A stretch of DNA of 64,000 nt from Agarophyton chilense (lineage: Eukaryota; Rhodophyta; Florideophyceae; Gracilariales; Gracilariaceae). Below are positions 49,966 to 62,589 of the stretch, in pieces; the first letter of the stretch is position 1, and every line of letters starts with the position of its first letter. Where the stretch lies: the NCBI GenBank assembly GCA_030374765.1, contig JARGXX010000071.1, positions 2,380,540 to 2,444,539 on the forward strand, in the 5' to 3' direction. The notes beneath the pieces were generated by a model. It saw only the letters and a list, made by a program, of their open reading frames with translations, ran no database searches and was not told where the DNA came from. Both the position numbers and the translations under genes were made by a program.

Positions 49966-51963
49966 CAGGAGGGCGGAGTGGCTGTCGACCTAAATTCTCG
50001 AGACTCTTCCTCGACTGCTCCTCCAAGTCCGACGCGCTTCACATTGTTTTCATGTAGGTAAGGCGTCACTGGCTTCGTAAGAATGTCTGCGTCATTGTCC
50101 TCACTGGGAACGTAAATGACGTTTAAGAAAGATTTCCTAACCAGTTCTCGGATGAAGTACAGCTTCACGTCGATGTGCTTCGCCCGACCCGATGGACAGC
50201 GCTCACCAGTTGCCCAATAAATTGCACACTGGTTTTCCGAACGCACAGGCACTGCTGCATCCACTCCCAATCCGATCTCACCAAACACACGCACTAACCA
50301 AATGAGCTCCTGCACGGCTGAGGTCAATGCGTAGTACTCGGCCTCATCAGTAGACAACGCATTGGATGCCTGATTCCTTGAACCGCAAACCTATGTGGCT
50401 GATCCAAGCTTCACCACGAATCCCGACATGGACTTGCGATCCACCTTGTCTGCAGCGAAGTCGGAGTCAACATACACGTCCAAGTCACAAGAGCCAGCGC
50501 GGTAGTGCAGAGTGTGCCCAGATGTGCCTCGTAAGTAGCGCAGCACGCGCATTGCAGCCCTGTGACAATAGGCCGTTGGTGATTTCTGAAAGCGAGCCAA
50601 GATAGGCACTGGCGCAAGTATGTCCAGGCGAGTGCGAAGCCCCAAGTACAACAGCGATCCAATGACTTGCTGGTACAATTGCGGGTCCTGGATGGACTTA
50701 TCTTCCTTAGCCGCCCACCCGGTAAAGAATGACTCCACCATTAGTGTGCACGCCGGCCTCGATCGTACAAACCCAAATCGTCGCAACACGCTTTCCGTGT
50801 ACACAGACTGGCCTAACGTCAGCTGGAGAGGGCGACCATCGGCATCCAAAGTCCATTTCGACTCAACACCGAGGAACAGACTCACGTCATCAGCCATGCG
50901 AAGTTCGTAGAAAGACTTGAGCTCCTCCACAATTGCACTCAGTTCGATGGCACAGGTGGTAAAAATCAGGAGGTCATCAACATACACCAACACGAAGGCA
51001 TCTTCATTGCGGTCATTGCGTCGGCGAAACACACATGGGGCACTGGGTAATTCTTCGAAACCCATGCTTTTCAGGTCTGCGCATAGTTTCTTATTCCATG
51101 CCAAGTGTGCCTGCTTGAGCCCATAGATGGCCTTGAGCAGTTTGAGGCAGCGGGAAGTGTTCCCAGGTATGCCGCGAGGGGACATGACCCACACATCTTC
51201 CTCGAGCTCCCCATTGAGGAACGCCGTCTTCACGTCTACTTGAGCCAGAAACATGCGCAAGCACAACGAGAGGTACAGAAAAATGCGAACCAGGGTGAAC
51301 GACACCCCTGGGGCATGTGTTTCCAAGTAGTCCTCACCATATGTTTGGTGGTTTCCGCCAGCCGCCACACGAGCCTTGAAACGTGCAACTGATGCATCGA
51401 CATTGCACTTCACGTTTAGAATGACATGCACGGGCAGTGGCTGCGAGGCAGGGGAGTCGTCTGGTGTCCAGGTATCCTTGGAGTCCAATGATTCAAACTC
51501 GGCGTCAATGGCCCCTTGCCACATATCACGCTCCCCCGGAGTGGCGGACATGGCCTCCTTCAGTGTTGGTTCATCGCTGGTGGTGACGTCGATGTTCGTA
51601 GTACACTGCGCAGATCCAGCCATGAACCACTTGGGCGGTTGACGACGAGTGCGACGCGGGTACCGTGGTTCCTGATCGGGTGTGGAGAATGTGTCAGGAT
51701 CGTGTGAGGACCCTCCATCATCACTATCGGCGCCGTCCCCATCGTCTTCGTCACCATCAGAGTCGAAGTCGGACTCCACCAACAGAGGTATGGGGTCTTG
51801 TTGCTCGTTTGTCCGGTCTTCGAAGTCCACTTCATCGACAGAGAATCCATCCGAGATATCACCAGTAGTCCCCTCAGAGCTCATCAGTGACACATAATTA
51901 TTATCCGGCGCACTCTCGTCATCCATATAGTTGGATAGAGCTGGAATGCCGGGGAACCTAAAC
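49966..51963 (-). pseudogene. Copia D reverse transcriptase-RNase H (broken)
   Basis: From ATG 51926 an acidic linker leads to RYPRRTRRQPPKWFMAG, then reverse transcriptase with VDVKTAFLNGELEEDVW and an intact LVYVDDLLIF catalytic motif, then YQQVIGSLLYLG. A TAG at 50391-50393 interrupts RNase H just after KLGSAT; the same phase continues with ALSTDEAEYYALTSAVQE, SENQCAIYWATGERCPSGRAKHIDVK and ILTKP to 49950. The stop replaces the Cys-Met-Trp region found in element C. No upstream half, so no function. Confidence 0.85.
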
Positions 51964-52097
51964 TGTAAGCTGTTGACCCTGTGCTGTCACTGAAAACCAA
52001 AAGTGCAGGAGAGCATGGGCTGTTTTGGAGGGTGCCTCTGGAAAAGCGCATATGCGTGTCAGTCGGATCCCAACGTGAACTCGGGCTGTGATTGGCT

Positions 52098-52102: not shown

Positions 52103-52354
52103 TGACGTTTGGGCTTCGGAAATGTTACCGAAGTTCATAGATGCGCAGTGTAGGGAGTCTCTATCACAAGCAACAATACTCGGCACAAGAGGTCTCCCCG
52201 GTCTCCTTATCGAGCTCCTGGGTTATTGACGTGCCTTTATATAGGGATACTAAGCGACCTTTGGGCTAATAGTGACGTACTAATAACGTACTAATAGTGC
52301 TGAAAGTAGTACAGAGTTTGTACGTCATAGCTTCTAAATGTACGCCGTTCCACA
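52103..52354 (-). repeat. 3' LTR of Copia B
   Basis: 252 bp, TGACGTTTGG...GTTCCACA, identical by eye to the 5' LTR. Followed on + by CACCCCCC, the complement of the polypurine tract. Confidence 0.9.
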
Positions 52355-52397
52355 CACCCCCCGTCGCGCTAGTATCCAACATCAACAAACATAGGAT

Positions 52398-55300
52398 TCA
52401 TTGCCACAAGTCGTGGTCAAGGGTCATACCTTTGGATAGGTTAATATTCCAGTATCGGTTACAGAGCATATCATTCATTTTCGCAGATTGAGTAGAGCTG
52501 CGTTTTGTAAGGGCGTCGGCGATGTTAAGAAGACCAGGAATCCAGGTTATCATATTCAATTCCCCTGACTCGAACGCGTCGCGAATCATAGTGACAGTCT
52601 TCCTTAATCGAAATTCCGTGCATTCGTGTGGGGTTGTGATTGTATCAAAAAGCGCTTTCGAGTCAACTAGAATGTGGTGTGTGATGTCGATACGAGGGAA
52701 GATGTTTCTGAGAGATTCTTTCATGTCATATCCGCGATCTTCGGCTTCAGCGCATGCAAGTATTTCAGCTCCAAATGATGAGTACGTCACTGGACTTTGC
52801 TTCGTGCTCGCCCAATGGATCGGGTGAAAAATAGGTTCGTCATTGAGGGCAGTGATCAGTCTGACTCCGCCTATGACTCCTGTTTGTCCACAGGATTGGT
52901 CGTTGGTACCATGAGATGCATCAGAAAGGCTCACAAGTGTCATAGCCGTGACTCCGAGGGGACGAACGTACTTAATTGAAGGACGAAGGTTCTGTATCTC
53001 GTGAAGCATGGCATTTGCGTCAACCAAGTGTTTAACTTTCAGTTGACCAAGCTCCTGTTGCATCTTCGAGGTAGTGAAAGAGGCTTGCGGGAGCACTGTG
53101 GAACCCAAGTACATGAGTGTTCCGGCCAAAGACCTGTATTCATGTTTCTCATGGTTGGTGGCCCTGTCGTCTCTTTCTCTTCTTCGTGCTCTGGATAGCT
53201 CGATTGGTTTCAGTCGCTGCATGTAGGAGTCCATTGAAAGAGTAATGTCTCGTTCTTCATCTTCGATTATGTCGCAGCCGGCGAAGTTCAATTTCTTTCC
53301 TATCCTTGCCTTTCCCACTTCAAATTCTTGATGTAGCTTCTGCATGAAGTTCGAGATACAGGGTTCAGTTCCTGCTATGAGTAGATCATCAACAATTTTC
53401 GCGATGGCAAGAGTTATGTTGTCACCTTCATGCTCCAGGAAGAGTTGGTTGACTCCGTATACTCGTGTCAGCCCTGTCTCGTTGAGCATCCATGACTCTA
53501 TGCGTTTAGCCCATTGTCGACCAGCTTCCACAATGCCATAGGGAAGTTTGGTCAGCTTCCAGAGTACTCCTTTCTTGTTTCGGAATTCCGGTGCTGGTCT
53601 CACGTATATATCTCTCTTGATCGGTCCACTTTGGACGTATGCACCTTTGATGTCCGCGACCCCGAATGAAAAGCCTAAACACGTGGCGATGCTGAGTAGT
53701 GTCCTAACAATGATCATGTCTGCATTGGAACAATCTTTCCTGATATCGTCTTTGAGGTCATCTCTGTTCCCATGCGTAACTAGGCGAGCTTTGAGTTTTC
53801 GAACATCGTCTTCGTCTTGCATCACTTTGTATACTGTGTGGGATGAGATAATATTCGCATCACGAGGCAGGTTTCCTTCGTAGATCTCTTCATACGCATC
53901 GATCCAATTATCCTTATGCTCCTTCTCAATTGCCTTCTTCAATATCCAAGCGGGCGCAAACTGGACTTCACGTGCTGTGACTTGGCGTGCTCCGATGACG
54001 TTCTGCATATCCTTGAGGATGTTCTGCTCCTGTGATTCAAGGTTGAGGGGATTGTCCATTACGGGGTTCTTGAGCAGTTCTTCGGTGTATGAGCCCATGT
54101 CCTTGTACACTTGTTCTTTATCGTCTGTGTTTGCAGCCATGAGCGAGCTCGTGACTTCCGTTATCAGCTGCTGTACATCGTCATCATTCGGGCTGAAGGT
54201 GAGGTCTATGTAGTCCTCCATGAGTCCTTCGGGTAGTTCTCGTGCGAGGTTTGAATTGGGGCGCAGCCGGATGTCTTCGTATGCTACTTTAGAAAATGTT
54301 CCCTTTTCTTTCCTTCTTATCTTCAAGTAGTGTGGATGTGCTTCGACAATAGCGGCATCGCGCCACTCGTCTGGGACGTTATGAGCAGTCGTTCGGAAGT
54401 AGAACAGTATCTCATCGCCCTTCTTTATAGAAGATTGGGAGAACTTCGAATGGACACGGGACTTCATTAGTTTCTGTAATGCTCTCGTTGCGGCTTGCTC
54501 AGTGTATGCTTGAAGTAGTTCCTCCGACACCATACGCCGAGGGGCGCCTAGAATGGAAGGGGCGTATCCTTTCGCTAATTCGAAGGAGCTGAGTGTCTTT
54601 GAACCGGTAAAGAGATTCGACAGAAATACCGCGCGTGAGAATATTGCTTTGTCGTTGGCGGTCGTGTTTTCCATTTTGAGCTTTTCGAGGATTCGCTTGA
54701 CTACTCCATTCTTACGCTCTACGATCCCGGTCTTATTATGACGTCGTACCGGCGTCACTTTCAATTTGATGTCCCTTCCGCACAGGAAACTGTTAATTTC
54801 TTTCGAATTCATTTCGTCGTCAGCTGACAATGCTTCTGGAGTTCCGTGTGAGTGTAACCATTCCACTTCGATCACGTTAATGATTGTTCGTGATGTCCTA
54901 TCGGAGACGATGCAGCTTTCGGAGTAACCAGTGCCACAATCGACTATGTGCAGAGCGGTGTATTTTGTTTCCTTAATAGTTGGGAACATGAATTCTACCT
55001 GTATCTCCACGTTGAATGCTTGGTTCACATGGTTAATAGATATCTTCTTGGACGGTAATGGTGGTCCAGATTTGGCACATATCATACAATTGTTGGAGAT
55101 ATCCCTGATCTCTTTTTCAAGCTTTGACGTCAGGCATCCAGCTCTTTCACATATATGCATAATTTCGTCAGGATGCGCATGCGTAAGACGGTGAAGCCTT
55201 TTTGCCAGTGTTCTTGGTCTGCTATCCCGAGCAGTGGATGAAAGTAACGCCTTCATGGTTGGAGTCAGCAATACGTGTGCTCTCGCGTTATACGGCGAAG

Positions 55301-55697
55301 TCGAATTGATGTAGAGCTCCAAAGTCCTTGGGGTCGTATCGATAGGGCGTTTCATGGTCATAGTTGGTGGATCAGATGACATTGATGTTGTGGTATACCT
55401 TTTCACATCCAGTCCTACGGTCAGCGAAGAATCATCATCGAATAGGTCGAAAGTAAGGTCTACGGGCTGGTTATTCAAGTCTTGTAACGATATAGTCCAG
55501 GAGCACTTGATTGTTTTCGGGTCTATACATTCATGTCCCCATCCACGACGATATCTCGATCTTGGTTGATGCGGTTCGAATGATATTCCTAACGCTTCAC
55601 ACAGCCTCATTGCAGATTTTATACTTCCGGATGATATAGGACTTCCCTCGTCTAGTATGGGATTCGGGTCGATTCCCGAATCCCCTACTGAAAAAAA
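52398..55697 (-). CDS. Copia B Pro-Pol polyprotein, reached by -1 frameshift
   Basis: Open from the seven-T slip site (55697) to the stop at 52398, about 1095 codons; the first ATG is only at 55610, after the protease motif, which argues for translation by frameshift from gag. Motifs in order: GDSGIDPNPILD just after the slip site (protease-like Asp-Ser-Gly), integrase zinc region (HRLTHAHPDEIMHI...CMICAK), integrase core with Asp in IVDCGTGYS, Asp in ALSADDEMN and Glu in GIVERKNGV, reverse transcriptase with VADIKGAYVQSG and an IVDDLLIAG catalytic motif (Ile in place of the usual Tyr), and RNase H with SLSDASHGTND and ILVDSKALFD, ending NIADALTKR. No stop inside. The divergent motifs set it apart from elements C and D. 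Confidence 0.88.
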   Translation of the reverse strand, partial: FFSVGDSGIDPNPILDEGSPISSGSIKSAMRLCEALGISFEPHQPRSRYRRGWGHECIDPKTIKCSWTISLQDLNNQPVDLTFDLFDDDSSLTVGLDVKRYTTTSMSSDPPTMTMKRPIDTTPRTLELYINSTSPYNARAHVLLTPTMKALLSSTARDSRPRTLAKRLHRLTHAHPDEIMHICERAGCLTSKLEKEIRDISNNCMICAKSGPPLPSKKISINHVNQAFNVEIQVEFMFPTIKETKYTALHIVDCGTGYSESCIVSDRTSRTIINVIEVEWLHSHGTPEALSADDEMNSKEINSFLCGRDIKLKVTPVRRHNKTGIVERKNGVVKRILEKLKMENTTANDKAIFSRAVFLSNLFTGSKTLSSFELAKGYAPSILGAPRRMVSEELLQAYTEQAATRALQKLMKSRVHSKFSQSSIKKGDEILFYFRTTAHNVPDEWRDAAIVEAHPHYLKIRRKEKGTFSKVAYEDIRLRPNSNLARELPEGLMEDYIDLTFSPNDDDVQQLITEVTSSLMAANTDDKEQVYKDMGSYTEELLKNPVMDNPLNLESQEQNILKDMQNVIGARQVTAREVQFAPAWILKKAIEKEHKDNWIDAYEEIYEGNLPRDANIISSHTVYKVMQDEDDVRKLKARLVTHGNRDDLKDDIRKDCSNADMIIVRTLLSIATCLGFSFGVADIKGAYVQSGPIKRDIYVRPAPEFRNKKGVLWKLTKLPYGIVEAGRQWAKRIESWMLNETGLTRVYGVNQLFLEHEGDNITLAIAKIVDDLLIAGTEPCISNFMQKLHQEFEVGKARIGKKLNFAGCDIIEDEERDITLSMDSYMQRLKPIELSRARRRERDDRATNHEKHEYRSLAGTLMYLGSTVLPQASFTTSKMQQELGQLKVKHLVDANAMLHEIQNLRPSIKYVRPLGVTAMTLVSLSDASHGTNDQSCGQTGVIGGVRLITALNDEPIFHPIHWASTKQSPVTYSSFGAEILACAEAEDRGYDMKESLRNIFPRIDITHHILVDSKALFDTITTPHECTEFRLRKTVTMIRDAFESGELNMITWIPGLLNIADALTKRSSTQSAKMNDMLCNRYWNINLSKGMTLDHDLWQ
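55659..55684 (-). promoter_or_regulatory. Frameshift-stimulating hairpin of Copia B
   Basis: On -, GGGATTCGGG (55684-55675), loop AATCGA, CCCGAATCCC (55668-55659): a perfect 10-bp stem beginning 6 nt after the slippery run. Confidence 0.85.
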
Positions 55698-56856
55698 GGT
55701 TTTGTCTGATTCTGTCGATTTTTGTCATTCTGATTCTGTCTTCTATGACGTGAATCGTTCTGATTTTGCTTCCCGTTCCGGGGTTCATTCTGCTTAGAGT
55801 TTCGAGAATCATTATTCCGATGATGGTCACTTCCATTCTCTGATGTCTTTTGTTTACGTACGTTCTCGCTCTCTTCATCACCCTGGTCATCCTTTTCTGC
55901 GTTTGACTTTTCTTGATCACGATTCCTCTTCTTGTTCTTCCTGTATCCCCTGTTGGAATTGAGGAAGGATCTGGACTTGTTATCTTCGTCTAGGTCCTTC
56001 TCTTCCAGACCGGCTTCTTCTAATGCTTTGATAGCATCCTGTAGTCCGATCCAGGAGCTATTGGTATCGTAAGACTTTTCGTACTGAGTGACAGCGGCTT
56101 TCAGGGCAGTTATCGACTGTGTGCATTCCTGCTTCGCGTAGTCCTCCGACCATCCAGCCTTGACCTTTTCCATTATGTCCACCACTGTGTCAATTCTACC
56201 TTTAGATATAGATATGACTGGACAATTTTGCTGTCTCTGTTCTTCGTAGAAACAACCAGATTACTTATGATGTTGCTGAAAGTCTGTGACGTCAGGTGCG
56301 CGTTCAATAAAAGGACGATGCCAAAGATTTGGCTGTCACTCGAATCTTGCTCCGAATTAGTAAGGTTTAGATATGACAAAGCGGGTCCTGCAAATCTGTC
56401 CACATACTCGGATATGGATTCTCCATTTTTACGCTTGCACATATTAATTTCCTTGTATAGGCGGACTATGCGGCGCAGACGATCGATGGTTGAGTCTTTG
56501 GCTACCAAATCAACAATCTTCTTAACCACGTCCATCTGGTTTATGACTTCAGTTTCTGATTGGGGCGTAAGAATCAATTCTCCTGTTCGAACTGCCTTTT
56601 TAACGATTTCCTTCTTGCAGAACTCGAGAGACCTGTAGAGTGTCATTCCCAATGTTGCAGCTCCACCTTTTGCTCTTGAATCGCCTCCTGCGGCACATGC
56701 ACGCAGGTTTTCTGCCCATTCAAGTACGGCTTCTCGCCAAAGAAGCTTATCGGTGTCGGAGCGAAACTTGGGTGGGATCAATATGTTGCTCGGGGAGAGT
56801 TCCTCCCCTGGGCCCATAACTGACGTTTGGGCTTCGGAAATGTTACCGAAGTTCAT
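55685..56856 (-). CDS. Copia B Gag (with one internal frame change)
   Basis: First ATG at 56856 lies inside the 5' LTR; the frame runs out of the LTR, through the primer-binding site (second ATG 56817) and on to 56173. From about 56200 the protein-like signal moves to the -1 phase (DTVVDIMEKVKAGWSEDYAKQ) and continues to the TAG at 55685. The first part is helical capsid-like (LLWREAVLEWAENLRAC; YKEINMCKRKNGESISEYVDRF, a UBN2-like gag pattern). The second part has a coiled stretch, then a long Arg/Asn/Gln/Lys tail (residues rich in RNRD, NQND) instead of a CCHC zinc knuckle. No classic slip site is seen at the internal frame change, so a one-base indel is the simpler reading. Confidence 0.75.
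55691..55697 (-). promoter_or_regulatory. Slippery heptamer UUUUUUU at the gag/pro-pol junction
   Basis: Seven T on - read in the gag phase as CC(T TTT TTT) CAG TAG, the X XXY YYZ form. A -1 slip enters the pol phase and immediately reads the protease motif. The spacer to the hairpin is CAGTAG, which contains the gag stop. Confidence 0.85.
56808..56820 (-). promoter_or_regulatory. Primer-binding site of Copia B, initiator-tRNA anticodon type
   Basis: CTGGGCCCATAAC on + directly abuts the LTR at 56821. It is identical to the anticodon-arm segment of the well-known eukaryotic initiator tRNA-Met, so the primer would be a 5' half-tRNA, as established for Drosophila copia. Confidence 0.8.
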
Positions 56857-57072
56857 AGATGCGCAGTGTAGGGAGTCTCTATCACAAGCAACAATACTCG
56901 GCACAAGAGGTCTCCCCGGTCTCCTTATCGAGCTCCTGGGTTATTGACGTGCCTTTATATAGGGATACTAAGCGACCTTTGGGCTAATAGTGACGTACTA
57001 ATAACGTACTAATAGTGCTGAAAGTAGTACAGAGTTTGTACGTCATAGCTTCTAAATGTACGCCGTTCCACA
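56821..57072 (-). repeat. 5' LTR of Copia B
   Basis: 252 bp, TG...CA. Contains TATATAAAGGC on - (56961-56951) as promoter, the gag ATG at 56856 and a 6-bp hairpin CTTCGG/CCGAAG (56832-56851). Confidence 0.9.
56951..56961 (-). promoter_or_regulatory. TATA box of LTR-B
   Basis: TATATAAAGGC on -, about 95 nt upstream of the gag ATG. It also occurs in the 3' LTR. Confidence 0.6.
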
Positions 57073-58288: not shown

Positions 58289-61200
58289 TCAACACTCCTC
58301 CTCGACTGGTCGGCCAAGTCCAACACGGTCCGCGTTATTGTTATGAAGACCTGGGCCAAGTGGTTTAGTTAAGAAGTCCGCATCATTGTCTTCACTTGGA
58401 ACGTACGTCACATTGATGTGACTATCCTTGACTAGTTCCCGAACGAAGTGCAACTTAACGTCAATGTGCTTAGCGCGACCCGACGGACAGCGTTCACCAG
58501 TTGCCCAGTCAATGGCGCACTGGTTGTCCGAACGAATGGGCACAGCACCTTGCACTTTCCATCCAATCTCCTTAAGCACACGCTTCAACCAAATAACCTC
58601 CTGACACGCAAGCGTCAAAGCATAATACTCGGCCTCGCCGGTAGACAACGCCACCGAAGCCTGTTTTCTTGCGCCCCACATACATGTCGCTTTGCCAAGC
58701 TTCACTAAGAAACCAGACATTGACTTGCGATCACGCGTGTCCGCAGCGTAGTCAGAGTCAACGTACGCCTCCAGTTTCACCATGCCAGAGTGATAGTGCA
58801 CACCATGTTCAGTTGTACCGCGAAGGTAACGAAGAACCCGCTTTGCTGCCTTGTGACAGTAGGCCGTGGGCGATTTCTGAAAACGAGCCAAGATTAGGAC
58901 GGGTGCTAATATATCCAACCGAGTTCTCAGTGCCAAATACAAAAGCGATCCAATGATCTGCTGGTACAGCTGAGTATCCTGGATGGATTTGTCTTTCTCA
59001 GATGTCCACCCGGTAAAAAAAGATTCTACCATAGGGGTGCATGCCGGCTTGGATCGCTGAAACCCGAAACGGCGCAACACGCTTTCCGTGTACAGTGACT
59101 GACCAAGATACAGCGACACAGGTCGACCATCTGAATCTAAAGTCCATTTGAATTCAACGCCGAGGTACAAGTTCACTTCGTCCGCCACACGCAGCTCGTA
59201 AAACGACTTAAGCTCCTCCAAAATCGCATCACGTTCCATGGCAGAAGTTGTGAATATTAGCAAGTCATCCACATAAACTAGCACGAACGCATCCTCATTG
59301 CTCTCGTTTTGGCGGCGAAACACGCAAGGTGCACTCGGTAACTCTTCAAAACATATGCTTTTCATATCCTCGCATAGTTTGTTGTGCCATGCCAAGTGCG
59401 CTTGCTTCAGTCCATAGATAGCCTTGAGCAATTTGAAGCATCGTGAAGTCACGCCAGGTATACCTCGAGGTGACATGATCCACACATCTTCCTCAAGTTC
59501 GCCATTGAGAAACGCAGTCTTCACATCCACCTGTACCACATACATGCGCAAGCATAACGTCAGATACAAGAATATGCGAACCAAAGAGAACGAAACAACT
59601 GGTGCATAAGTCTCCATGTAGTCCTGACCATATGTTTGGTGGTTTCCACCGGCTACAACACGAGCCTTAAAACGTTCAACTGACCCATCAGCATTGCGCT
59701 TTACCTTCAGTATGACGTGAGTTGGTAGTGGTTGTGAAGCAGGAGAGTCATCAGGTTTCCAAGTTTGCTTCGACTCCAATGATGAAAACTCTTCATCGAC
59801 GGCTGCTTGCCACATGGTACGCTCCTCCGCACTGGCGGACATTGCCTCCTTGAGTGAGGGCTCATCACCAGTAGTGACTTTGACTTGCGATGTACAGTGA
59901 GCAGACCCTGCCATGAACCACCTCAGAGGTTGACGGCGCGTGCGCCGCGGGTAGCGTGGTTCCGTATCAGCGTTGGCAGATGTATCAAGGTCATCAGCAG
60001 CACTTTCGTCATCACTTTCGGAATCCTGTGCATCGTCTTCATTGCTGCCGGAGTCTGACTCCGACTGCCTGAGTGCTGGAATCAGGTGCGAGGATCCGTC
60101 ATGAACCACCTCCTCCTCAACATTATCGACGGAGAAGGTATCCGATTCGTCATCAATGCTATCACATAATCCCATATCAGAGCTATAGTCAGCATCTGAC
60201 GCACTTTCATCATCCGTGTAGTTGGCAAGAGATGATGCGCCAGGGAACTTAGATTCATCAAAAGTAACATGTCGTGACTCAATAATACGCGGAGTACCGT
60301 CATTATCAACGACGAGTACCTTGTACACACCATGCTCAAGAGTCTCCAAGTACACTCCCTCAAGTGCACGAGACTCGAACTTGGGTCCACGCGGAGTCCT
60401 TAGCACGAATGCAGTGCATCCAAACACACGCACGTGCTTCAACAAAGGTTTATTTCCAGTTACCAGAAAGTAGGGACTGTTGTTAACAGTAGAATGTTGC
60501 ACTCGATTACGCACAAAGATAACATGTTTCAGCGCATATGGCCACAAACATTCTGGTAGATCGGCTTGGATCAGCAACGATCGAGCAGCTTCCACCATGG
60601 TACGATTGATGCGCTCAGCTATAGCGTTGTGTTCGGGGGTGTATGGAGCAGAGAAAGAAGTGAGGCCATGTTCTGCTGCCAAGTTCTCTTGCAGGGCAAT
60701 ATATTCTTCTGCACCGTCCGAGTGCAAACTTTTGATATGCACTCCTCCAAGCTGCTTAAACTTTGCCGCAATACCCACAAACACATCACTAAGAGCACTG
60801 CGATGGATCACCAGACCTAGGAACACATACCGTGAGTGATCATCGCGGAATGTACATGCATATTGAAACTTTTCCGGAAAAGACTTTTCCAGAGGACCTA
60901 CAATATCCGAGTGCACAATGTCACCAACCGCGGATGCATGTTCAAAGTGACCTGGGAACGGAAGCTTATGAGCTTTGCCAAGTCGACATGCTCGGCATAC
61001 CTCCTCCATGTCACACAAGTGCGGCACTCCATCTGCGTACTTGTGTACATGTTGCAGATCACGTTGGTTGATGTGAGCCAGTCGTCGGTGCCACAGTTGA
61101 GTCTCCGTAGACTTAGTCGAAAGCGCAAGTTCCACACCAGCATGCCCTAAAGGTTGAGGCAGTGTGTACATGCGAGATACCTTGTCACGATCACCAATGC

Positions 61201-61297
61201 CCACCTCAAAACCATTTGACTCTAGCGTCAAACGTACACTATGACGACCGAAGAGCGACTCAATACCTTTGTCGGCCAAACACCCGGTTGAAACCAA
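58289..61297 (-). CDS. Copia C integrase-reverse transcriptase-RNase H
   Basis: Open frame of 1002 codons; its upstream end is set by a phase break, not a true start. Integrase zinc region HRRLAH...CRACRLGK (residues 70-108), core Asp131 (VHSDIVGPL), Asp194 (LHSDGAEEY), Glu229 (AIAERINRT); a long acidic linker; then reverse transcriptase starting RYPRRTRRQPLRWFMAG with VDVKTAFLNGELEEDVW and catalytic YVDD near residue 675; RNase H with AYVDSDYAADTRDRKSMSG, STGEAEYYAL, and ending FLTKPLG. All catalytic motifs are intact. About 70-80% similar by eye to element D over the shared part. Confidence 0.92.
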   Translation of the reverse strand: MVSTGCLADKGIESLFGRHSVRLTLESNGFEVGIGDRDKVSRMYTLPQPLGHAGVELALSTKSTETQLWHRRLAHINQRDLQHVHKYADGVPHLCDMEEVCRACRLGKAHKLPFPGHFEHASAVGDIVHSDIVGPLEKSFPEKFQYACTFRDDHSRYVFLGLVIHRSALSDVFVGIAAKFKQLGGVHIKSLHSDGAEEYIALQENLAAEHGLTSFSAPYTPEHNAIAERINRTMVEAARSLLIQADLPECLWPYALKHVIFVRNRVQHSTVNNSPYFLVTGNKPLLKHVRVFGCTAFVLRTPRGPKFESRALEGVYLETLEHGVYKVLVVDNDGTPRIIESRHVTFDESKFPGASSLANYTDDESASDADYSSDMGLCDSIDDESDTFSVDNVEEEVVHDGSSHLIPALRQSESDSGSNEDDAQDSESDDESAADDLDTSANADTEPRYPRRTRRQPLRWFMAGSAHCTSQVKVTTGDEPSLKEAMSASAEERTMWQAAVDEEFSSLESKQTWKPDDSPASQPLPTHVILKVKRNADGSVERFKARVVAGGNHQTYGQDYMETYAPVVSFSLVRIFLYLTLCLRMYVVQVDVKTAFLNGELEEDVWIMSPRGIPGVTSRCFKLLKAIYGLKQAHLAWHNKLCEDMKSICFEELPSAPCVFRRQNESNEDAFVLVYVDDLLIFTTSAMERDAILEELKSFYELRVADEVNLYLGVEFKWTLDSDGRPVSLYLGQSLYTESVLRRFGFQRSKPACTPMVESFFTGWTSEKDKSIQDTQLYQQIIGSLLYLALRTRLDILAPVLILARFQKSPTAYCHKAAKRVLRYLRGTTEHGVHYHSGMVKLEAYVDSDYAADTRDRKSMSGFLVKLGKATCMWGARKQASVALSTGEAEYYALTLACQEVIWLKRVLKEIGWKVQGAVPIRSDNQCAIDWATGERCPSGRAKHIDVKLHFVRELVKDSHINVTYVPSEDNDADFLTKPLGPGLHNNNADRVGLGRPVEEEC

Positions 61298-62589
61298 GTT
61301 GTATCCCAGAGCGGGGTCAGTAGGGCATCACTCAGACGTATGTTCGCATTGTCCAAAGGAATGATCACCTCTCCGCGTTGTTTAGATACAACAGATGTGT
61401 TATCGGCAAGCATCACTGTCCTTTCGTCGCAAGGTTCAAGTGAACCGGGCACGAACGCACAAACAGAATGGAAGCAATGTACTGTCGCACCGCTGTCTGC
61501 GTAGGTGCTCAGGTCATTCGGCGGAACTATAGTGGTCCTTTCCACAGTTGCACCAGCAATTTCGATTTTTCCAGACTTTCCAGAAGACTTGCTCGAGGCG
61601 CTTCTACCACTACTGCCACCCATTCGCTTGGGTTGTGGCGACAGTTTATCGAGGATACTCTGCGGCAAGTGGTTGTCCGGGTTGTCCGGATTCATAAAGC
61701 AACGATCTTGTGTGTGTCCATCGCGATCACAGAAGTCGCAATGATGTCCATTGCTCGATCCAGAACGATCAAATGATGACGATCTCAAGGCGGCAGCAAG
61801 TGCACGAGCAGTAGACTCAATGTCGGAGTGACCATCAGACTCCTCATCTTCGTTGTTTGCACTACTGCGGGTACGATTAGTCGATTCAGAATGTCGACCA
61901 GATTTTTTCCTGCCCTTCTTCTTGCGACGTGAACTACGTCCAGACGGCCTTGCAGACACCTGTTTCGCGTTGTATTCATCTATGAGGGTCGTGGCCACGT
62001 AGTCCCATGTAAGCTCAGCGATATCCTTGGTTCGAAGAGCTGCAGCAGTAGACTCCAGTGTGCTATTGGGATCAATAGAAGCAAGTAACATGGGAGCTTT
62101 GTGCGACTCCGGTACTGCCGCATCCTTCCCCATGCGCTCTAACTGAGCAAATAACGCCGTGTACTGGTCCACATAGCCTGACATATTCTGACCATTGTAT
62201 CCCATACGGAATAGTTGAGTCTGCACAGCAATTCTGGATACAGTACGATTGGACGCATACCGTGCATCAAGTAATGCGAGCATGCGCGCCGGGTCGTCGT
62301 CGACATCCATGACCACACGAAGTGGCGCATCACCCAAGGCGCATATTATGATTCCACATGCCTTCTCGCGCTTGGCGACAACTCGAGCGCTATCAATAGC
62401 GGTATCCGATGTTGCTTCAGTAGTTGCTGAATATCCAGAATCGGATTCCACAACGTTCCACACACCTTTAACACGGCATGCAGCACGAAGGCGATGGCGC
62501 CATAGGGCATAATCATCACCACGCCTTCCATGAAAACGAGGGATTTTCATCCCGGTAGTACTTTCGGATTCCATTTCCGTGTCCGACAT
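61228..62589 (-). CDS. Copia C Gag-protease
   Basis: 453 codons from ATG 62589. N-terminal gag with the retrotransposon pattern F.GR.GDDYALWRHRLRAA and a helical UBN2-like core; a basic Lys/Arg/Ser linker (RKKKGRKKSGR); a zinc knuckle CDFCDRDGHTQDRCF (CX2CX4HX4C); a Ser/Lys linker; and the protease active site STYADSGATVHCF. The frame ends in the protease-integrase connection after LSDALLTP; the homologous continuation (GYNLVSTGCLADKGIESLF) lies in the -1 phase with no slippery heptamer nearby, so a one-base deletion in this copy is likely. Confidence 0.85.
   Translation of the reverse strand: MSDTEMESESTTGMKIPRFHGRRGDDYALWRHRLRAACRVKGVWNVVESDSGYSATTEATSDTAIDSARVVAKREKACGIIICALGDAPLRVVMDVDDDPARMLALLDARYASNRTVSRIAVQTQLFRMGYNGQNMSGYVDQYTALFAQLERMGKDAAVPESHKAPMLLASIDPNSTLESTAAALRTKDIAELTWDYVATTLIDEYNAKQVSARPSGRSSRRKKKGRKKSGRHSESTNRTRSSANNEDEESDGHSDIESTARALAAALRSSSFDRSGSSNGHHCDFCDRDGHTQDRCFMNPDNPDNHLPQSILDKLSPQPKRMGGSSGRSASSKSSGKSGKIEIAGATVERTTIVPPNDLSTYADSGATVHCFHSVCAFVPGSLEPCDERTVMLADNTSVVSKQRGEVIIPLDNANIRLSDALLTPLWDTTWFQPGVWPTKVLSRSSVVIVYV

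Follow-up and report, generated by a model that had tools for sequence, protein, structure and literature searches.

A probable -1 ribosomal frameshift signal with a relaxed slip site at the gag-pol junction of a red-algal Copia clade

Introduction

How does a retrotransposon whose gag and pol lie in two overlapping frames obtain its Gag-Pol product? The question is raised by a Copia-type element found on the minus strand of a 64-kb stretch of red-algal DNA (the whole of which is hereafter called the window). Copia elements are mostly single-frame, and the exceptions described in the available portions of the literature comprise +1 shifting, stop codons and splicing (PMC3735527, PMC7175516, PMC2194720). 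An earlier note, made from the letters of the window, had proposed that the two frames of this element are joined by a canonical -1 ribosomal frameshift signal. Here, we weigh this proposal using the window copy, its copies and distant relatives in the same genome (79.8 Mb, 135 contigs; C numbers denote contigs and L numbers junction loci), and protein relatives from beyond it.

The element and its coding regions

The features of the element are collected in Table 1.

Table 1. Features of the window copy and its surroundings (positions are those of the window).
Feature	Position	Strand	Size or content	Basis or remark
Whole LTR element	52103..57072	(-)	4970 bp	inserted between other Copia-type ORFs
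Target-site duplication	57077-57073 and 52102-52098		ACAGT, 5 bp	sequence; same in C94 allele
5' LTR	56821..57072	(-)	TG...CA, 252 bp	100% identity to 3' LTR
3' LTR	52103..52354	(-)	252 bp	LTR comparison
Primer binding site	56808..56820	(-)		begins at first base past 5' LTR
Likely polypurine tract	52355..52362	(-)	G-rich stretch directly before 3' LTR	sequence
gag, first frame	56173..56940	(-)	255 aa, stop to stop	ends early in window copy
gag, second frame	55685..56260	(-)	191 aa	ends at junction stop TAG
In-frame gag ATGs	56856-56854 and 56817-56815	(-)	MNF... (first)	first inside LTR, second inside primer binding site
Slip site	55691..55697	(-)	U_UUU_UUU, then C	
Spacer	55685..55690	(-)	6 nt, CAG UAG	CAG 55690-55688; gag stop TAG 55687-55685
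Hairpin	55659..55684	(-)	perfect 10 bp, 6-nt loop	5' arm 55684-55675; loop 55674-55669; 3' arm 55668-55659
pol, -1 frame	52398..55691	(-)	entered at UCA after slip	PR, IN, RT, RNase H order of Copia
GDSG	55685-55674			
DEG, likely protease active-site triplet	55644..55652	(-)		alignment with DSG, DPG, DNG relatives; inference
First pol ATG	55610-55608			
Flanking Copia-type ORFs	50391-51986 and 58289-61327			RVT_2; different kind

By its predicted Copia-type reverse transcriptase, an integrase placed before it, and TG...CA LTRs with a short target-site duplication, the element is assigned to the Copia superfamily (Pseudoviridae). Within the pol ORF only RVT_2 was matched by Pfam (E 6.4e-22, residues 618-838) and, because no integrase match was returned, the integrase call is based on motifs located before the reverse transcriptase (invariant H178, H182, C213 and C216, D302 and E336, with D262 nearly invariant). 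The comparison of the pol sequence with solved structures gave no match. The two LTRs are identical, and the insertion is therefore recent; the description of a young algal Copia element thus held good (RVT_2 in pol, identical LTRs, and a red alga as host). The host was recognized as a red alga by rbcL and phycobilisome genes lying together on C39, and C27 holds one more match to a phycobilisome domain. The two ORFs that flank the element (Table 1) point to nested insertions. Ten pieces resembling positions 73-245 of the LTR (74% identity) were found on C40, C42 and C43 (spaced by roughly 34 kb on C43 and by 43-68 kb on C40). An Rfam search across the 64-kb window returned no match.

The primer binding site is a 13-nt exact complement to the anticodon arm of an initiator-type tRNA-Met (one of three tRNA genes compared letter by letter), and this complementarity to an internal part of the tRNA places the element among those predicted to use half-tRNA (Hemivirus-type) priming. 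One of the in-frame gag ATGs lies inside this site, its start codon pairing with the CAU anticodon of the primer, and a counterpart of the site with its contained gag ATG is present in other clades too. The motif TVM(G/S)P was invariant in nine gag proteins.

In the window copy gag is split across two frames (a break that had escaped the earlier note), and in other copies gag runs uninterrupted for 393-399 codons; judging from its letters, the window copy would be unable to make full-length Gag by itself. We considered the break as a second programmed shift and rejected this, since the nearest copy differs in length there. Gag of the window's family (L040 included in the comparison) is without a zinc knuckle and has instead a tail rich in N, K, Q and R; in distant clades (L058, L068, L070) a zinc-knuckle-like CX2CX4HX6-7C was seen, with Pfam scores below the cut-off or no match. 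The pol frame entered by the shift stays open for 1096 codons up to a TGA, in line with the approximately 1095 previously given.

The junction in the window copy

Read directly on the minus strand, gag ends CCU UUU UUU CAG UAG. The letters bear out the heptamer, the 6-nt spacer holding the gag stop, and the 10-bp hairpin with its 6-nt loop (all 10 of 10 pairs being Watson-Crick). This copy thus combines frames overlapping at -1, an X_XXY_YYZ heptamer, a 6-nt spacer and a 10-bp stem, as in a classical -1 signal.

The frequency of such a combination was assessed by counting X_XXY_YYZ heptamers on both strands and looking for a Watson-Crick hairpin of at least 9 bp at a spacing of 4-9. Out of 214 heptamers in the window (99 + 115), only those at this junction had a fitting hairpin (the place counts as two overlapping heptamers, 55697 and 55696), against a chance expectation of 0.133 per window (8 matches in total from 60 Markov shuffles). 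This sole coincidence of heptamer and hairpin, together with the -1 relation of the frames, supports the proposal that a -1 signal lies where gag and pol of this Copia-type element overlap. A 32-nt piece had a folding energy of -18.1 kcal/mol (z -3.74; 0 of 200 shuffles as good) and a 63-nt piece a z of -2.64 (2 of 200 shuffles as good). Compared with synonymous recodings of the same peptide, the Watson-Crick stem was exceptional (P 0.0002); with G-U pairs allowed and a wider search, the P values were 0.057 for stem length and 0.002 for folding energy. Phenylalanine is encoded in two pols by TTT 22 times and by TTC 48 times, and therefore the TTT TTT of the junction does not merely reflect codon habit.

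We consider it very probable that the junction is a programmed -1 ribosomal frameshift signal, belonging to a Copia clade and having a relaxed slip site, that sets the ratio of Gag to Gag-Pol. The reading frames, together with the slip site and hairpin and the way all of these are conserved, lead us to infer pausing and slippage of a certain efficiency, as follows. Most ribosomes would read ...UUU UUU CAG UAG and stop, giving rise to Gag, while a minority would pause at the hairpin (which starts about 6 nt past the U run), whereupon the tRNA-Phe on the last UUU would slip back by one base on U_UUU and the ribosome would continue in the pol frame (F-F-S-V-G...), yielding Gag-Pol.

Copies of the family in the same genome

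A BLAST search with the element over the genome gave 53 matches (40 candidates scored). The identical copy on C94 was rejected as independent evidence, as it has the same flanks and the same target-site duplication; it is an allele or a duplicate contig. Of the family found by BLAST, 18 loci (counted by contig place) could be aligned across the junction, and 16 of them keep six or more T, the exceptions being C107 (five T) and C99:1063 kb (altered). Searching with a pattern made of the U run and the 5' arm (3 mismatches at most) recovered 23 places, compared with 2 for the reversed control; one of the 23 (L053), with neither gag nor pol around it, was left out as a chance match. In relatives, the hairpin occupies the same stem region and has a loop 9 nt longer.

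Seven of the 22 pattern loci (L031-L035, L039, L040) have an open gag of 393-396 codons leading up to the U run, on whose upstream side the pol frame is open for only 5-7 codons; the change of frame must therefore occur at the junction. Many copies are decayed. A block of 4691 nt is identical in C98 and C99, lies in non-homologous flanks (a 64-nt match at the edge of these was taken as LTR) and has 399 codons of gag and 1100 of pol open; such identical blocks at unrelated sites indicate recent mobility with this junction in place. In a third insertion, on C100, pol is likewise open for 1100 codons and gag is cut to 184.

The third codon positions of the two stem arms were 0.956 and 0.867 identical, as opposed to 0.70 further on (L031-L052 were found by a pattern containing the U run, which biases conservation figures upward). 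The check for compensatory stem changes among family copies, suggested by the earlier note, came out negative: 0 pairs were found within the window's family, and paired cells (91.3%) were no more frequent than in shuffles (91.7%).

Distant clades and relatives beyond the genome

A protein search with pol over the genome produced 55 matches from 42 scored candidates. From the clades at 36-47% we took 18 junction regions, leaving out C27, C100:284 kb and C3:939 kb (near-copies of C105 by score); the pol motif was recognized by pattern in 14 of them and in altered form in three more (L061, L063, L072). At 11 of the 14 distant loci the gag ORF runs into the junction in the frame that requires a -1 shift, and the remaining three have gag cut earlier (L057, L066) or the stop lost (L071); gag in the pol frame was seen at 0 of the 14. 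For each of the four clades, representatives show the open gag frame ending exactly at TTT|C.

The stems of these clades are built from different letters. L058 and its kin pair TTGAGGTCAG with CTGACCTCAA, L070 and L072 pair TAGGATCTGC with GCAGATCCTA, and L056, L057 and L068 have a shorter stem (GATCAG with CTGATC), the 3' arm lying, in the clades compared, always on codons for D-P/L-N-P. The longest helix formed by an element's own arms measured 10, 10, 11, 8, 10 and 8 bp in six of seven representatives (6 in L069), while arms taken from different clades pair over 4-8 bp. Set against a synonymous null, the Watson-Crick stem was longer than expected in C99 (P 0.0018), L058 (0.0006), L064 (0.012) and L070 (0.016), and without significance in L069 (P 0.14) and L057 (P 0.25). 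Folding energy, a weaker test than the Watson-Crick stem, was not unusual compared with synonymous recodings (L058 0.11, L064 0.21, L070 0.11, L057 0.24, L056 0.44). The four clades have different stems, and those of three (the window's family, the clade of L058 and L064, and that of L070) exceed the expectation from synonymous codon choice. Positional covariation across clades was rejected, since the stems sit in different registers; what we see is a hairpin that stays in position as its letters change. The putative stem is accordingly supported by the synonymous tests and by the different stems in other clades.

Outside the genome, 78 protein relatives were obtained (7999 candidates scored), 67 of them at 331 bits or more; nearly all derive from metagenome contigs and one from a EukProt transcriptome, and none was confirmed in a viral contig. 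The junction could be read in 24 relatives, the other 43 starting later or defying judgement. In 21 of the 24 the protein begins shortly before the motif and has no gag; since the start sites are predicted, this shows only the absence of gag from that ORF. The other three (P0024, P0028, P0066) have gag in the same frame. Copies with gag and pol in one frame had been named beforehand as the counter-case to the frameshift reading: they were absent among the genome copies examined, and present as these 3 of 24 metagenome relatives. Three of five gag relatives (P0085-P0087) end in FFR plus four residues, where the one-frame P0024 reads FFS; P0084 and P0088 have no such ending.

Slip-site variation and competing explanations

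The junctions of 40 related loci (25 unique 21-mers) were tabulated. U_UUU_C stands on the gag codon boundary in 37 of the 40 (22 of the 25 unique), and the gag stop follows 3 or 6 nt past it in 21 of the 25 unique junctions; three loci break U_UUU_C (L047, L056, L073) and L052, L071 and L073 are without a stop. The decayed L047 (C22) reads U_UUU_UUA (the HIV-1 heptamer), followed by two stops and the short-loop stem of the window's family. Immediately ahead of the C, the pair of gag codons reads UUU UUU in 17 unique junctions and CUU UUU in 4, with UAU UUU, UAC UUU, UUU UUA and GAA UUU found once each. Among the 17, the preceding base is U (9), G (4), C (2) or A (2). Across 15 unique junctions with the long loop, identity was 0.989 for the six T (a biased figure, the loci having been found by a T-run pattern) and 0.333 for the preceding base (unbiased). 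Elements with both genes open read G_UUU_UUU (C98, C99), G_CUU_UUU (C115:202 kb, C2), G_UAU_UUU (C105) and U_UUU_UUU (C73:531 kb), and the first three of these sites do not fit X_XXY_YYZ. The heptamer, called canonical in the earlier note, is therefore a property of the window copy but not a conserved feature of its relatives, in which the first base varies and other clades have CUU UUU C or UAU UUU C. The conserved core is U_UUU_C, and it may be this core, rather than the full heptamer, that matters for slippage.

A U run followed by CAG could also serve as a 3' splice acceptor, pol being then translated from a spliced subgenomic RNA. We judge this unlikely: UUUUUUUCAG does resemble an acceptor, and Drosophila copia and barley BARE1 control Gag in this manner (according to the available text of PMC3735527), but the CAG is particular to the window's family (other clades read CAU CAU UGAG, CGG GAU UGAG, CGG UAAAG and CGU CAA UAG), and splicing explains neither the hairpin, nor the ending of the U run on a gag codon boundary in four clades, nor the fact that pol is always at -1 where gag is readable. 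Transcriptional or reverse-transcriptional slippage on the T run, by which a share of the templates would carry gag and pol in one frame, agrees with the T7 of the window copy and with the three one-frame metagenome relatives. It is nonetheless very unlikely, given that the T run is just 5 or 4 long in intact elements from other clades (L058, L068), which is too short for usual slippage, and that it would need neither the codon phase nor the hairpin.

Returning to programmed -1 frameshifting, the census bears on its mode. Where the upstream codon is CUU or UAU, its tRNA cannot pair again after a tandem slip, but the tRNA-Phe on UUU can do so in every case, which favours a single-tRNA reading. 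It is possible, if on balance doubtful, that the clade shifts by means of a single P-site tRNA-Phe on U_UUU (with C in the next codon, aided by the hairpin) and not by tandem slippage. If so, the heptamer of the window would represent one form among several, and the clade would amount to a natural series whose upstream codon was free to vary (UUU, CUU, UAU) and whose stem was replaced several times. Since the native junctions differ in the very base pairs that the tandem-slippage rule deems important, they would offer a ready natural test of that rule.

The probable protease motif and the start of pol

The pol frame had been described as beginning with a protease-like Asp-Ser-Gly, an identification that we do not retain. 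GDSG is encoded by the 5' arm and loop of the hairpin, and was rejected as the protease motif because relatives read RDSD, SLRS(A) or GSAS at the same place; their D-x-G motif aligns ten residues downstream, where the window copy has LDEG (matching DEG, DPG, DSG and DNG, i.e. D-E/P/S/N-G, of relatives). From this alignment LDEG is the likelier protease active site. A protease profile compared with the PDB gave no match at E 1. The first ATG of pol lies downstream of both motifs, which for the Asp-Ser-Gly agrees with what had been noted.

This position bears on another route to pol, in which translation would begin internally or start anew past the gag stop. Such a route has been proposed for Candida Tca2, in which a stop codon separates gag and pol (available text of PMC2194720). 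Although a hairpin at the gag stop would suit such a route, in the window copy its first usable ATG would come only after the protease motif and the U run would be left unexplained, so that we hold it to be extremely unlikely. It is likewise extremely unlikely that simple decay of a one-frame gag-pol element produced the two frames. The -1 arrangement recurs at one and the same position in four clades, among them elements with both frames open, and this already contradicts decay despite the true break inside the window copy's gag and the many decayed copies.

Comparison with known systems

The frameshift signal proposed here resembles the retroviral (HIV-1 type) one in having the gag stop just past a U-rich slip site, a 6-nt spacer, a stable stem and pol at -1. 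It differs in its Copia-type pol and in its slip site, the first base of the heptamer being free and intact elements having CUU UUU C or UAU UUU C. Animal elements with a -1 arrangement belong mostly to superfamilies other than Copia. In the available text of one review, U_UUU_UUA is named as the HIV heptamer, and 28 of 51 animal LTR elements (Ty3/gypsy-type and others) have pol at -1, many with classical heptamers, the set as described there holding no red-algal Copia (PMC5009743).

With the yeast elements Ty1, Ty2 and Ty4 the present one shares the Copia type and the two overlapping gag and pol frames joined by recoding (PMC7175516, as far as its available text goes). The yeast elements use a +1 heptamer, whereas here the shift would be -1, with a U run and a hairpin. 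Drosophila copia uses a half-tRNA primer, and the primer binding site right after the LTR is common to it, to Hemivirus and to the element of the window. Unlike the latter, Drosophila copia has one ORF and controls Gag by splicing (available portions of PMC2194720 and PMC3735527; for the definition of the genus Hemivirus see PMC8515867). GalEa-like Copia elements are recorded from crustaceans, fishes and red algae, and one of them, CoRex1, is comparable by description in being of Copia type with separate gag and pol ORFs, but has a primer binding site of the ordinary 3'-end type and no frameshift signal named in the available text (PMC3587641). In the accessible part of a choanoflagellate survey, slippage motifs are given only for two families, named as chromoviral, and the Copia-like ones are one-frame.

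The literature searched (in which subscription journals are thinly covered) held no report of a -1 signal in an algal Copia element, and none of recoding was found for red algae. Thus, -1 frameshifting as such is known, and the red-algal Copia setting with its relaxed site appears new as far as these searches go. A red-algal Copia clade that keeps a -1 shift together with a hairpin would show that retrovirus-like recoding also serves the Copia superfamily.
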